Positions 1,444 through 5,771 of a DNA stretch of 40,757 nt are shown here, one piece after another. The stretch comes from a filamentous cyanobacterium CCP2. Its GTDB lineage: Bacteria; Cyanobacteriota; Cyanobacteriia; Elainellales; Elainellaceae. Made by a program: the position numbers and the translations under genes. The notes beneath the pieces were generated by a model, which saw only the letters and a list, made by a program, of their open reading frames with translations, did not search any database and was not told where the DNA came from. The stretch covers positions 1 through 40,757 of the forward strand of contig PVWD01000022.1 of NCBI GenBank assembly GCA_003003615.1, given 5' to 3'. Numbering within the stretch: the first letter of the stretch is position 1; every line of letters begins with the position of its first letter.

Positions 1444-1728
1444 GGTACAAATTCAATGAATACCAACTCAATAAAAAGCTACATAAAATCTGGGAATCAA
1501 TTTCCGATCGTAATCTTCAACACCTCTTTAGCTGATACCCAAATTACAGCAATTCCCCCAATCATCAGCGTCACAATGTCCCCACCTAGCAAATCTCGTA
1601 ACTGCTCTAGGACAAACACTTTATAGATTAGTTGGCAACTCGATATTACACCTAAGATCGCCAATGCTAATGAGATAAATCTCTAATAGAGCTAAATTAA
1701 TCAGTTTGTCAACCTGCTCTCAGCCGTC

Positions 1729-2769
1729 TTAGATAAGGTTATTGTATACGTTTACTTCTTCCAGTTGATTTGATGAGTCGTGCTCAATACAACTTTGTCC
1801 AGGTACAGTATCACTTTGATGGAGAACTGACCAAGGCTCAACAGTTGGTCGATACCACCAAGTCTCTAAACGTTCACTCTCAACGTAGTTCTTTAATGCA
1901 GGATCAGGCCAAATATGTAGTCGATTCCTGCAACCAAGCCTATCAGCAGCAATTTCAATTGCCTCCCATTGGCGTACAAAATTAGCAGCCCAATCATGAT
2001 GATGCATCACAGAATTTGCAAATTCTAGTCCAGCAGCAACCATGCGCTTTCCGTTAGAACCTCTAGCATTAATTGGTTCCCAAAACAAAACCTCTGGCTC
2101 TAAAGTTAGCAGTATTTCTAAATGACGAGTCAACGTATCAACATCCATACTTGGATGAGTGGGGGCAATTGCTACATAGAGTCTGCATCCAGCTTTTCTA
2201 CCTTGACGAAGTGCTTTGAGACGGTGAGATGGAAGTGGAGCATGAGGCTCAATTTGACGACTAAGATTATCCTCTAAATGAGGTAAGCTCATTCCCACAG
2301 TCACATTAGGGTGATTTAGTAAGCTTAGATCTTGGAGCCAAAGGGGACTGCGTGTTAGAATCCGAACTCGCTTTTTGTGCTTGAGTAAAGTTTGAACAGC
2401 AGTGCGAGTAATAGCAGCAGTTTGGTGGTTTTGATACGGATCAGTTCCAGAACATAACAATACAACCCCCTGTCCTGCTGGAGTTTCTTTCCAGCTCCGC
2501 TTACGCGAGAGTTGATTCTCTAGCTGCTCAGGAAGATTTTCCCGAACTATTAGGTAGTCCCCCCAATCCATTTGGGGATTTTTAATACCTTTATCTTTTA
2601 AGTGTGGCTGACGAGCTCTGATGACTGGAGTAGAAGGAACATAGCAGAAAGTACACCCATGAAGGCAACCTGAGGCAACATTGATGACATAATCACACAA
2701 ACCTTTCTTACTAAGGTTGCTCTCCTGCAAAGGATTTAGGATTGTCTCAGTTCCGTAAATAGCGGGCAT
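1729..2769 (-). CDS. SplB-like radical SAM protein with CX3CX2C motif
   Basis: A 346-residue protein with the radical SAM cluster motif C35-x3-C39-x2-C42 (SGCLHGCTFCYVP), expected to bind a [4Fe-4S] cluster and cleave S-adenosylmethionine. The overall pattern (N-terminal cluster motif, LLCSGTDPYQ near residue 105, VTVGMSLP near 155) resembles the COG1533 spore-photoproduct-lyase-like group, but I see nothing that fixes the substrate. It is divergent from the TcmP-type gene at 2986, with 216 bp between the two starts. TcmP means 'three-Cys-motif partner', and this protein supplies exactly such a motif, so the two probably act together. The gene lacks HIP1 cores and is more A/T-rich than the photosynthesis genes, which suggests acquisition. 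A repair or modification role is inference only. Confidence 0.8.
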   Translation of the reverse strand: MPAIYGTETILNPLQESNLSKKGLCDYVINVASGCLHGCTFCYVPSTPVIRARQPHLKDKGIKNPQMDWGDYLIVRENLPEQLENQLSRKRSWKETPAGQGVVLLCSGTDPYQNHQTAAITRTAVQTLLKHKKRVRILTRSPLWLQDLSLLNHPNVTVGMSLPHLEDNLSRQIEPHAPLPSHRLKALRQGRKAGCRLYVAIAPTHPSMDVDTLTRHLEILLTLEPEVLFWEPINARGSNGKRMVAAGLEFANSVMHHHDWAANFVRQWEAIEIAADRLGCRNRLHIWPDPALKNYVESERLETWWYRPTVEPWSVLHQSDTVPGQSCIEHDSSNQLEEVNVYNNLI

Positions 2770-2896
2770 AATAGTACGTTTATCCTACTAGACCATAATA
2801 AACCCAAAGCAAAAGCATGTGCATTGACCTTCAGAATGCCAAGTTAATAAACATGAGCATATCTTAATCCCTATATATAGCGGTCATGAAGAACAT

Positions 2897-2925
2897 TTGC
2901 ACTGTATATTGCGCTTTGTTATAAT
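2897..2925 (+). promoter_or_regulatory. Sigma70-type promoter for the TcmP-type gene
   Basis: TTGCAC at 2897-2902 and a perfect TATAAT at 2920-2925 are separated by 17 bp, the ideal spacing. A strong ribosome binding site, GGAGGT at 2971-2976, sits 9 bases before the ATG at 2986 and fixes that start. Such a complete consensus promoter is unusual among the genes of this window. Confidence 0.65.
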
Positions 2926-2985
2926 TCATTTCAGATGTTACAAATATCACAGGCTCAAAGCGGTAAACCCGGAGGTAGATGAAGT

Positions 2986-4371
2986 ATGGTGGAATGGAAG
3001 AAATACAGTCATAAGTCTGAAGTTAAGTGGACTGTGGATGGTTTGATGCTGGATATTGATCACCATACAAAAACAAAACATCTGCTTTTAGAGAGCTACT
3101 TACAAGATTGGGTAGAAACCCTTACAGGAAACTGCAAAATCGGAACAGGTCAAGTTACTCTAGTTGATGGATTTTGTGGCGGTGGAATCTACCGCGATGG
3201 TGACGATTATTGGGAAGGCTCCCCAATAAGAATGATTCGAGCGGTTGAAGCGGGTTGGCGGTCTGTGAAGGAGCGGAAGCCATATCAGGATCTGAACATT
3301 GCATATCTTTTTGTAGACGCGCAAAGGGAGCATACCGAATGCTTGAAATACCAAATTCGAGAAGCAGGATACGGTGAGCTTTTAGATAGTGGTCGGTGTC
3401 GAGTAGTGACAGGAGATTTTGAGGATCAGTTAGAAGATTGCTTGAGTTGGGTAAAACAACGGGGAGGTCATTCATTCTTTTTCCTAGATCCCTTCGGTCT
3501 AGCAGATCTACCTGGTATGTCCAGAGCGATATTATCCCTTGGCAGATCTGAGGTATTGCTTAACCATATGCAGCATGATGGATTTATGCGACCTATGGGC
3601 TGGCATCGGAGTAGGGGCAGTATAGAAACTTTCCTAGAAAAATACGGCTTCGCCAATCATTACGATTGGTGTAAAGAAATAGACAAGTTATCCACTTTGA
3701 AACAGCAAGCTCTTTTACATGATTCAGCTTTGCGTTTGTATCGTGAGTGCAGCGCACCTCGTTTCGCATGGACTTTCGCCTTCATGCGAAATCCGAACAC
3801 AGTCTATTACTATCTCATTCACCTTTCCAACAAGCCTACAGCTGTGAGTGTTATGAGGCGAACGTTATGGAAGTATAACAATTTAGACTATCAGTTTCAT
3901 TATGGAATATTCGGACTAGGCTATAGAACCCTCGATGATCTAAATCAAAACCTGCAACTACTAGATATTCACCAACGCAACTCTCAAGCATGTCAAGAGA
4001 AGCTGAGAGAGCAACTTGAGCGATTTATGTTTGCCCAGAAAGCTTTACAATTCCGTAAGTTGTTTGAAGGAACTGTTGAGCAACATCCTGCAACTCGTGA
4101 AGATTACATGGGCGTGATTCATCAAATGGTGCTAGATGGTGATTTAGAAATTATCCGAGAAGAGCGGTCACGCTGCACTTCCCGCATCTTCAATAAGGAT
4201 ATTATTCGTAAATCGGAAGCCAAACAGCTAGTCCTTCTCTCTGATAGAACATCAGAACGTATTCCTCGAAAGCGAAGAGCTTCTAGAACATCATCAGCTT
4301 CTAAACATGTAACTGCCTTAGAAACATCACTTACAAGTCAAAGTCTTCTGTTTCCTGAGTTTGAACTGTAA
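2986..4371 (+). CDS. tcmP: Three-Cys-motif partner protein (TcmP family), methyltransferase-like
   Basis: A 461-residue protein. The N-terminal part has Rossmann methyltransferase-like signatures: DGFCGGGIY at residues 61-69 (motif I position), a GSP turn at 78-80, LFVDAQ at 108-113 and FFFLDPFG at 164-171 (motif IV position). The region around 350-410 looks like a winged helix-turn-helix, as known at the C-terminus of TcmP proteins. The last 50 residues are Arg/Ser-rich and probably disordered. Family members are found beside proteins with a three-cysteine CX3CX2C motif; here the divergent neighbour at 1729-2769 carries one. The start is set by GGAGGT at 2971. No HIP1 core occurs in the gene. 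The biochemical activity of the family is not known to me. Nucleic-acid modification is suggested by the fold plus the wHTH, but this is inference. Confidence 0.8.
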   Translation: MVEWKKYSHKSEVKWTVDGLMLDIDHHTKTKHLLLESYLQDWVETLTGNCKIGTGQVTLVDGFCGGGIYRDGDDYWEGSPIRMIRAVEAGWRSVKERKPYQDLNIAYLFVDAQREHTECLKYQIREAGYGELLDSGRCRVVTGDFEDQLEDCLSWVKQRGGHSFFFLDPFGLADLPGMSRAILSLGRSEVLLNHMQHDGFMRPMGWHRSRGSIETFLEKYGFANHYDWCKEIDKLSTLKQQALLHDSALRLYRECSAPRFAWTFAFMRNPNTVYYYLIHLSNKPTAVSVMRRTLWKYNNLDYQFHYGIFGLGYRTLDDLNQNLQLLDIHQRNSQACQEKLREQLERFMFAQKALQFRKLFEGTVEQHPATREDYMGVIHQMVLDGDLEIIREERSRCTSRIFNKDIIRKSEAKQLVLLSDRTSERIPRKRRASRTSSASKHVTALETSLTSQSLLFPEFEL

Positions 4372-4432
4372 TGAGAGTTTTAGAATCATGCTTCACATCA
4401 TGCTTCACAATTTGCATTGACCACACCCAGCA

Positions 4433-4708
4433 TCATACGGATTCTCTAAAGCTCCGCGCTCCGAAATGATGCACTGCTCGATGTCCAATGCGGACAATCC
4501 AGGGCTGGGCTTCGGGGCACCGCACAAATAGCTTTCCTGTCGCAGAAAGGATATCATCTGCAACCTCAAACGCTCCGGTTTCGATATCGATCGCCACAAT
4601 TCTGCCATAATTCGCTGCTTCGACCTGTGAGCGCACCTGAAATTCATAAATCTCATCACCACGTCGAGCAATTTCTTCTTTGCTATACCGAGGTTGTCGA
4701 ACAGGCAT
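4433..4708 (-). CDS. Small conserved cyanobacterial protein, function unknown
   Basis: A 91-residue protein with an N-terminal charged helix (PRYSKEEIARRGDEIYE) and a compact C-terminal part with GRIVAIDIETGAFEVADD and WIVRIGHRAVHHFG. I recall this pattern from short cyanobacterial hypothetical proteins that often sit in front of an aspartic-protease-like gene, which would suit an antitoxin-like role; no such partner follows here, since the TcmP-type gene ends convergently at 4371. A purine-rich AGGGGAAGGGA tract lies just upstream of the start. It is 58 bp downstream of the ParA-type gene and could be co-transcribed with it. It may be an orphan remnant of a two-gene module. Confidence 0.7.
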   Translation of the reverse strand: MPVRQPRYSKEEIARRGDEIYEFQVRSQVEAANYGRIVAIDIETGAFEVADDILSATGKLFVRCPEAQPWIVRIGHRAVHHFGARSFRESV

Positions 4709-4766
4709 CAGTTTGTTCCCTTCCCCTCTACCTATTTATCTTGGCTGCGTAATTGCTTGTACTGAT

Positions 4767-5771
4767 TCAAAAAAGCTGTAGGTCAGTCTGATCTATCTTT
4801 GATCTTCTTTTGTTATTCCTGCTATCAATTCGTTCCAGTATTTCACTAACAAGAGCTTCCCACTCTTGTTGATGCTCCTGTTGTTGTTTCTTCAAATGAG
4901 GATCAGTGGGATAATATTCAATCAATGGGCAGTTTTCTGCTTCTGCTTTGCGTACAATGTCTGAACTTTTAATACGACTATTAAATATTATTGATTCATC
5001 TCCTCTCCTACGAATATTTTTTGATAGCCATTCATCAAATTCTTTTTCCCAACTTTGAAATTCTTTGTCCCATTTATTATTTTCAATGGTCGCCCTGGTA
5101 TCAACCTTAGAGTACAGAACTCCAAGTAGCTCAACTAGACAAGAAGCTTTGCACCGTCTCAGACGATCCACACATTCAACAATTTTGTCTAGTCCCCAGT
5201 ACGAATAAGCATCCAAAAGAGTGGGAACAATGAAGTAGCGGCTGAGGGAAAGACCATTTAAGGTTATCAAGCCGAGACTTGGAGGACAATCAAAAATAAT
5301 GTGAGTATAAGCCTTGTTTTCAGGATTCTTTAATTTATTTAAGGCATTGAAAAGTATATCTGTCGAGCTTAAATAGTATCGGCTATATTCAACGAGTTTG
5401 TCTTGAATCTCAATTAGCTTAAGGCTTGAGGGTAATAAATCTAAATTAAGTCCCTCGATAGGTGACACCCTAATTTCATTAATATCGATACTCTCTTCAT
5501 CATCATTCCGTAAAATCTCATTTGAAAAGAGTTTGTATAGTGTCTTGTCCTCATTATCTATTACTTTGTAATGCTCTTTTTTTAACAACGTCAGTGAAGC
5601 ATTACTTTGAGGATCTAAATCAATCAGTAGAACAGATGCTGGCTTTGTCTTCCAACCAGATCTAATCCTTCTTCTCGCTAACGTAGCGGCAACATTCACA
5701 GCAGATGTAGTCTTGCCTACACCACCTTTGAGATTAATGAAGCTGATTACTGTAGCGTTACCAATTTTCAT
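4767..5771 (-). CDS. Orphan ParA/Soj-type ATPase
   Basis: A 334-residue MinD/ParA-family ATPase. It has the deviant Walker A KGGVGKTT at residues 15-22 with the signature Lys15, a Walker A' LLIDLDPQSN around 48-57, and a Walker B HIIFDCPPSLGLI around 157-169. ParA proteins dimerise on ATP, bind DNA non-specifically and position plasmids, chromosomes or protein cargo. No ParB lies beside it. Instead a 73-residue Gly-rich membrane protein (5825-6046) lies 53 bp upstream and a 91-residue protein lies downstream, all on the same strand. A/T-rich codon use and absence of the CGATCG core mark it as foreign to the surrounding genome. It may be a plasmid-derived partition remnant or a cargo-positioning ATPase; the sequence does not decide. 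Confidence 0.88.
   Translation of the reverse strand: MKIGNATVISFINLKGGVGKTTSAVNVAATLARRRIRSGWKTKPASVLLIDLDPQSNASLTLLKKEHYKVIDNEDKTLYKLFSNEILRNDDEESIDINEIRVSPIEGLNLDLLPSSLKLIEIQDKLVEYSRYYLSSTDILFNALNKLKNPENKAYTHIIFDCPPSLGLITLNGLSLSRYFIVPTLLDAYSYWGLDKIVECVDRLRRCKASCLVELLGVLYSKVDTRATIENNKWDKEFQSWEKEFDEWLSKNIRRRGDESIIFNSRIKSSDIVRKAEAENCPLIEYYPTDPHLKKQQQEHQQEWEALVSEILERIDSRNNKRRSKIDQTDLQLF

Follow-up and report, generated by a model that had tools for sequence, protein, structure and literature searches.

At one end of contig PVWD01000022.1 of the filamentous cyanobacterium CCP2, a gene for a radical SAM protein (rSAM below) stands back to back with a gene for a TcmP-type protein. An earlier note on this DNA took the two for a mobile nucleic acid modification, repair or defence module. 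Do these genes really belong together, and if so, what could their products do? Below, the window is the whole stretch of DNA analysed (40,757 nucleotides) and SPL stands for spore photoproduct lyase.

The locus and its composition

Both genes lie exactly where the earlier note had placed them (Table 1). The 2,643 bp of the pair contain no CGATCG while the window has 3.24 per kb; by a simple Poisson estimate, the chance of a CGATCG-free pair is about 2e-4. No other CGATCG-free interval in the window is as long as the one that contains the pair (3,083 bp, 1505-4588). The GC content is 42.3% in the pair vs 48.9% in the window, so both compositional features described before, CGATCG absence and A/T-richness, are real. 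The A/T-rich, CGATCG-poor stretch does not end with the pair but extends across a ParA gene as far as about 5875, which possibly makes the islet larger than the pair. Its part at 4433-5771 holds a 91-aa ORF without a family match and the gene for the ParA-type ATPase, both missing beside psaB in relatives. It may be the remains of a mobile element.

The 216 bp divergent region shared by the two genes is there as described, but the near-consensus tcmP promoter reported in it matches 10 of 12 consensus positions at a chance level. Since shuffling of 2770-2985 yields about as many comparable sites (1.5 per shuffled region on average), support for this promoter is weak.

Table 1. Features of the rSAM-TcmP locus, in window coordinates
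Feature	Position	Strand	Basis
rSAM, SPL-like radical SAM protein, 346 aa	1729..2769	-	ORF; PF04055 over cut-off
C106, SPL hydrogen-atom-donor position (C140 in the Geobacillus enzyme)	2452..2454	-	alignment, 34-residue spacing
CX3CX2C [4Fe-4S] motif, residues 35-42, then Y43	2644..2667	-	80/80 relatives
C25, additional cysteine before the CX3CX2C motif	2695..2697	-	80/80 paired-type relatives
Intergenic region, 216 bp, divergent	2770..2985	.	possible sigma-70 site inside
Possible sigma-70 site TTTGCA-N18-TATAAT	2896-2925	+	10/12 consensus positions; no better than chance
TcmP, 461 aa; RlmJ/Trm1-like methyltransferase core and C-terminal winged helix	2986..4371	+	TIGR04474
K31, putative equivalent of RlmJ K18 by first-helix position	3076..3078	+	89/90 TcmPs with a letter there
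Motif I, DGFCGGG, SAM-binding loop	3166..3186	+	D61, G65 in 90/90 TcmPs with letters there
Motif IV, DPFG, replacing RlmJ DPPY	3487..3498	+	D168 in 93/93 TcmPs
Winged helix PF22560 'GMT-wHTH', residues 316-392	3931..4161	+	9.7e-8, over cut-off

The radical SAM protein

The cysteines Cys35, 39 and 42, from which a CX3CX2C radical SAM protein had been proposed, are present, and PF04055 is matched at 34.6 bits (cut-off 29.5). A PDB sequence search gave no convincing solved relative; such relatives were found by fold comparison only. The predicted model of rSAM (AF2, pLDDT 89) has SPL as its best PDB match (Z 20.4, 259 residues), the next family reaching 16.5.

In SPL the hydrogen donor is C140/C141, and the radical is relayed by the tyrosine following the cluster motif (PMC5368176). 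According to a sequence alignment anchored by the fold match, the donor region FEAAC(140)TSD of SPL, with a lysine 34 residues on, corresponds to VVLLC(106)SGTD in rSAM, where R140 stands 34 residues on. Across 80 rSAMs, C25, C35, C39, F41, C42, Y43 and R140 are invariant. Position 106 alternates with position 111: C106/P111 is found in 55 of these proteins, S106/C111 in 24 and S106/P111 in one, C111 being the donor-position cysteine of the archaeal rSAMs. That the placement of the donor cysteine can differ is known within SPLs themselves, as the Clostridium enzyme has it on the opposite side of the pocket (PMC5368176). By these comparisons rSAM is built like SPL: its cluster cysteines are intact, and the alignment puts Y43 in the place of the relay tyrosine and a cysteine at, or close to, that of the hydrogen donor.

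None of C25, C106 and C111 is present in the 17 unpaired PA0069-like relatives from the same phylum. Pairing with TcmP therefore goes together with additional cysteines, which lie at the SPL donor position or close to it.

Membership of rSAM in several named families was considered and rejected, as all scores stayed below the cut-offs: SPL (PF20903, 12.2 vs 27; TIGR04070, 10.9 vs 400), PA0069 (NF033668, 84.9 bits vs 360), Rv2578c (71 bits vs 430) and Radical SAM mobile pair protein B (TIGR04470, 47 bits vs 410).

rSAMs of Okeania, Lyngbya and a Microcoleaceae MAG carry an intein-like insert of about 310 residues within the cluster motif (L143:3151-5124, L144:3941-5908, L145:6861-8819, L146:6858-8825), with the junctions ...CTFC-LAPETLILYSD...FFANGLATHN-CYVPSTP. 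This insert recalls the intein-bearing Rv2578c family of NCBIfam.

The TcmP protein

The earlier assignment of TcmP with a winged helix is borne out by TIGR04474, matched over residues 27-297 (140 bits; cut-off 53), and by PF22560, also over its cut-off. The predicted model (AF2) is of middling confidence, with a mean pLDDT of 66.5 and 80-95 in the core. RlmJ is the best structural match of this core (Z 17.8, 217 residues) and Trm1 the second (Z 15.6), with other methyltransferases scoring lower. The activity of RlmJ requires K18 of the first helix and D164 of the DPPY motif (PMC3814359). Among 93 TcmPs, K31, D61, G65, D168 and an acidic residue at position 111 are almost or wholly invariant. 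TcmP thus combines a core of the RlmJ/Trm1 type, in which the SAM-binding and the K-D catalytic residues are conserved, with a winged helix. It likely binds SAM, and methylation of an exocyclic amine is possible. As its motif IV reads DPFG, not DPPY, TcmP may instead lack methylation activity and only bind SAM or a base.

The divergence of TcmP is about double that of its rSAM (median distance ratio 2.08 over 496 non-independent pairs). This is as expected for a target-facing subunit, although weaker constraint would look alike.

Conservation of the pair

In a set of 386 cyanobacterial genomes, there are 11 intact close homologues of rSAM, the window's own included, the other ten having 60-68% identity to it. 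All 11 adjoin TcmP, as does a decayed copy in genome G030. Two more decayed copies are short fragments: the second copy of G060 (L088) lies with a TcmP fragment, that of G068 (L089) without one. No TcmP adjoins the more distant rSAMs (27-34% identity).

A GTDB scan of about 85,000 species genomes, with a few loci overlapping this cyanobacterial sample, gave 60 rSAM loci (47 cyanobacterial and 13 haloarchaeal). Of the 60, 57 have an adjacent TcmP, some of these TcmPs being interrupted. It is missing at L105, L149 and L151; the rSAM of L151 seems to lie inside a prophage. An rSAM falling into an SPL clade devoid of TcmP neighbours, which would speak against a partnership, was looked for in vain. 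Hence rSAM and TcmP are evolutionary partners, and their pairing is both real and specific.

The arrangement of the pair is flexible: cyanobacterial pairs are divergent in 23 cases and tandem in 23, so divergence itself is not conserved. No third gene recurs beside the pair; the ParA gene and the 91-aa ORF of the window were not seen to recur.

Several loci deviate from the simple pair. Both genes have decayed to fragments at L087:9249-9895 and L088:9282-9800, and the TcmP fragment of L088 matches the end of TcmP in the window with 89% identity. At L105:3742-5639 the rSAM gene without TcmP divergently faces another methyltransferase-like gene, followed by a ParA-type gene. rSAM without TcmP is also found on viral contigs and in a probable prophage (L165:5965-6918, L166:320-1411, L151:7686-8930); judged from sequence, two phosphoadenylyl-sulfate-reductase-like genes are located upstream of rSAM in L165. 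Most haloarchaeal loci (L148, L152-L159, L161, L162) have two rSAM paralogues per single TcmP. Paralogues of one type are extended at the N-terminus, with a zinc-ribbon-like CxxC...CxxC region in the added part.

DUF5131 and the exchange of partners

Seen from the side of TcmP, the earlier claim needs correction: rSAM is a partner of TcmP but not its usual one, as most TcmPs adjoin DUF5131 (PF07505). Out of 59 TcmP matches in the 386 cyanobacterial genomes, 43 are beside DUF5131, 12 beside rSAM and four beside neither. Of these four, a stop codon interrupts one, and the other three, fragmentary matches among them, score under the family cut-off, so no intact solitary TcmP was seen in these genomes. 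The genome of the window itself has no DUF5131 match.

The profiles of rSAM and DUF5131 match distantly (hhalign probability 74%, E 2.8e-5), with the alignment covering the cysteine motif and the strands after it. The cluster motif of DUF5131 is mostly CX6CX2C, with CX3CX2C in two genomes, and its donor region reads VNS(78)MSD with K112 34 residues on. As DUF5131 is distantly related to rSAM, the slot beside TcmP holds one or the other SPL-like radical enzyme; at our locus it is a distinct SPL-like rSAM that occupies the place of DUF5131.

A tree of 93 TcmPs, quickly built and with some long branches, requires five changes between rSAM and DUF5131, at least three of them forced by strongly supported branches. 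Since each TcmP partner is either rSAM or DUF5131, TcmP has swapped its radical SAM partner three to five times on this tree, and exchange of partners has happened more than once. A single rSAM group is thus found with TcmPs of several deep subfamilies: the long one with the winged helix, the short one, the Pseudanabaena type and the haloarchaeal ones.

DUF5131 can do without TcmP. It is solitary in 33 of 76 matches in cyanobacterial genomes, and in phage records DUF5131 is much commoner without TcmP than together with it (161 records with DUF5131, about ten with TcmP). Such asymmetry would suit a toxin-antitoxin-like system in which TcmP makes a harmful mark on nucleic acid, rSAM or DUF5131 prevents or removes it, and the partner found alone in phages serves as their antidote. 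The absence of TcmP as an intact solitary gene, the rSAMs without TcmP on viral contigs and in the probable prophage of L151 and the joint decay of both genes in L087 and L088 point the same way. However, the asymmetry is equally expected if TcmP is useless without a catalytic partner, and the variable gene order of cyanobacterial pairs is unlike that of typical toxin-antitoxin operons, so we consider this explanation improbable.

Mobility and the question of defence

The rSAM-TcmP pair is horizontally mobile, as the earlier note had claimed. Its distribution is patchy: two of the 36 genomes of the window's family have a full-length rSAM, in both cases beside TcmP, and 14 relatives lack the islet at distances of up to 1.5 kb from psaB. 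Pairs sit on conjugative or large plasmids; on a Haloarcula plasmid the pair adjoins an integrase gene, and in Nostoc sp. C052 a plasmid-borne pair directly adjoins BREX genes. On pSymA of S. meliloti (L191:3346-9007), the gene of the phage-defence helicase Hna comes first, then those of a short and a long TcmP and last that of DUF5131; size, sequence and PMC12445080 served to identify them. Two TcmP types share one DUF5131 at this locus.

The same observations bear on another explanation, namely a pair modifying tRNA or rRNA, dispensable yet housekeeping-like. The nearest folds of TcmP, RlmJ and Trm1, are indeed RNA methyltransferases, but a patchy, plasmid-borne and fast-evolving pair with no recurring translation genes beside it makes this a very improbable reading.

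For a location in defence islands, we compared 122 proteins encoded within two genes of 33 cyanobacterial pairs with 120 control proteins from random stretches. With family counts being a crude measure and gene calls mechanical, the neighbours matched 63 PADLOC families, none with more than one member, and the controls 99. There is no excess of defence models, so the flanks show no general enrichment in defence genes and the expected island location did not materialise. What speaks for the defence module of the earlier note is the match of TcmP to PADLOC candidates and the single pairs beside BREX or Hna. A defence role is therefore possible, with the pair probably being a variant form of a phage-defence candidate that has hardly been studied.

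Proposed activity and its significance

We give about even chances to the pair being a two-component enzyme, mobile and active on nucleic acid, which it would modify or repair. The earlier proposal as a whole is partly supported; in favour of its nucleic acid part, the structure models of both proteins point to nucleic acid chemistry. TcmP would bind DNA or RNA via its winged helix and methyltransferase core, present a base and perhaps methylate its exocyclic amine. rSAM would then generate a 5'-deoxyadenosyl radical and take hydrogen from the presented base or lesion, and the product radical would be quenched by C106 of rSAM (C111 in archaea), as in SPL. With less weight, we speculate that the role lies in mobile-element conflict rather than in housekeeping, such as the making of a DNA or RNA mark or the processing of phage modifications. 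We lean this way because the pair is patchily spread and occurs on plasmids, TcmP with DUF5131 is a PADLOC candidate, and single pairs lie next to BREX or Hna.

The main rival is DNA-damage repair, in which a photoproduct, alkylation or crosslink would be the lesion recognised by TcmP and then directly reversed by the SPL-like rSAM, in the way SPL treats spore photoproduct. The SPL architecture of rSAM and the position of its hydrogen-donor cysteine are in line with this, and so is a putative TcmP/DUF5131 cluster of M. tuberculosis, Rv2734-Rv2735c-recX-recA, which responds to mitomycin C (PMC5057432). Rv2735c, a putative TcmP gene, is co-transcribed with recA (PMC3062782), and a BCG gene carries a TcmP-domain annotation (PMC7387457). 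On the other hand, the patchy spread and the fast divergence of TcmP are unusual for core repair, no repair gene recurs among the neighbours, and the 23 divergent cyanobacterial regions contain no LexA-like box (RGTACNNNDGTWC) that would indicate SOS control. We consider this repair reading unlikely.

A tentative extension of the two-component enzyme reading, on the doubtful side in our opinion, is that of a radical-SAM/methyltransferase complex that edits or erases bases by radical chemistry, has modular partners and takes part in mobile-element conflict in bacteria and archaea. The methyltransferase-fold subunit of such a complex would pick the target and possibly give a methyl group, while an interchangeable SPL-type radical subunit would do the radical chemistry on the DNA or RNA base.

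TcmP is a widespread protein, and the use of the same partner slot by two SPL-like radical SAM families argues for radical chemistry as the common activity. Concrete residues are now available for mutation: C106/C111 and C25 in rSAM, K31 and D168 in TcmP. If the substrate is DNA or RNA, the pair would add to the modification, repair or defence enzymes of bacteria and archaea one that has two components and works by radical chemistry.

Comparison with known systems

rSAM resembles SPL in the fold of its model and in the cluster motif and, going by sequence alignment, has a putative relay tyrosine (Y43), a cysteine at the hydrogen-donor position and the 34-residue spacing to K/R. It differs from SPL in sequence (about 14% identity), in having F41 where, by sequence alignment, SPL has its first relay tyrosine (Y97 in B. 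subtilis), and in being paired with TcmP. Its hosts are not known to form endospores. By sequence the nearest named families are PA0069 and Rv2578c, but within the phylum, C25, C106/C111 and TcmP neighbours are all missing from PA0069-like relatives. Radical SAM mobile pair protein B (TIGR04470) is a distantly similar mobile radical SAM protein, and the haloarchaeal loci with two rSAM paralogues recall it; here, however, the partner of rSAM is TcmP.

RlmJ, the 23S rRNA m6A2030 methyltransferase, and Trm1 resemble TcmP in the core fold, the catalytic K and D residues and the SAM-binding motif. TcmP departs from RlmJ in motif IV, where DPFG stands in place of DPP(Y/F), and from both enzymes in its additional C-terminal winged helix, in its mobility and in being always paired as far as seen.

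The closest known systems are PDC-M30 and PDC-M41, PADLOC candidates for phage defence with TcmP as component A and DUF5131, the 'phage Gp37/Gp68 family', as component B. The window's TcmP matches PDC-M30A (5.7e-19), further TcmPs paired with rSAM match PDC-M41A, and in all of them the partner of TcmP is an SPL-like radical enzyme with a three-cysteine motif. The difference lies in component B: rSAM, with its CX3CX2C, C25 and C106/C111, matches no PADLOC model.

In the open-access literature we found no direct work on the function of TcmP or DUF5131. The pairing of TcmP with a three-cysteine protein is known already, by name and as a PADLOC candidate. For three points no report was found in the literature searched: that a distinct SPL-like rSAM with pair-specific cysteines stands in for DUF5131, that it has spread to haloarchaea, and that TcmP has an RlmJ-like core with a conserved catalytic dyad.
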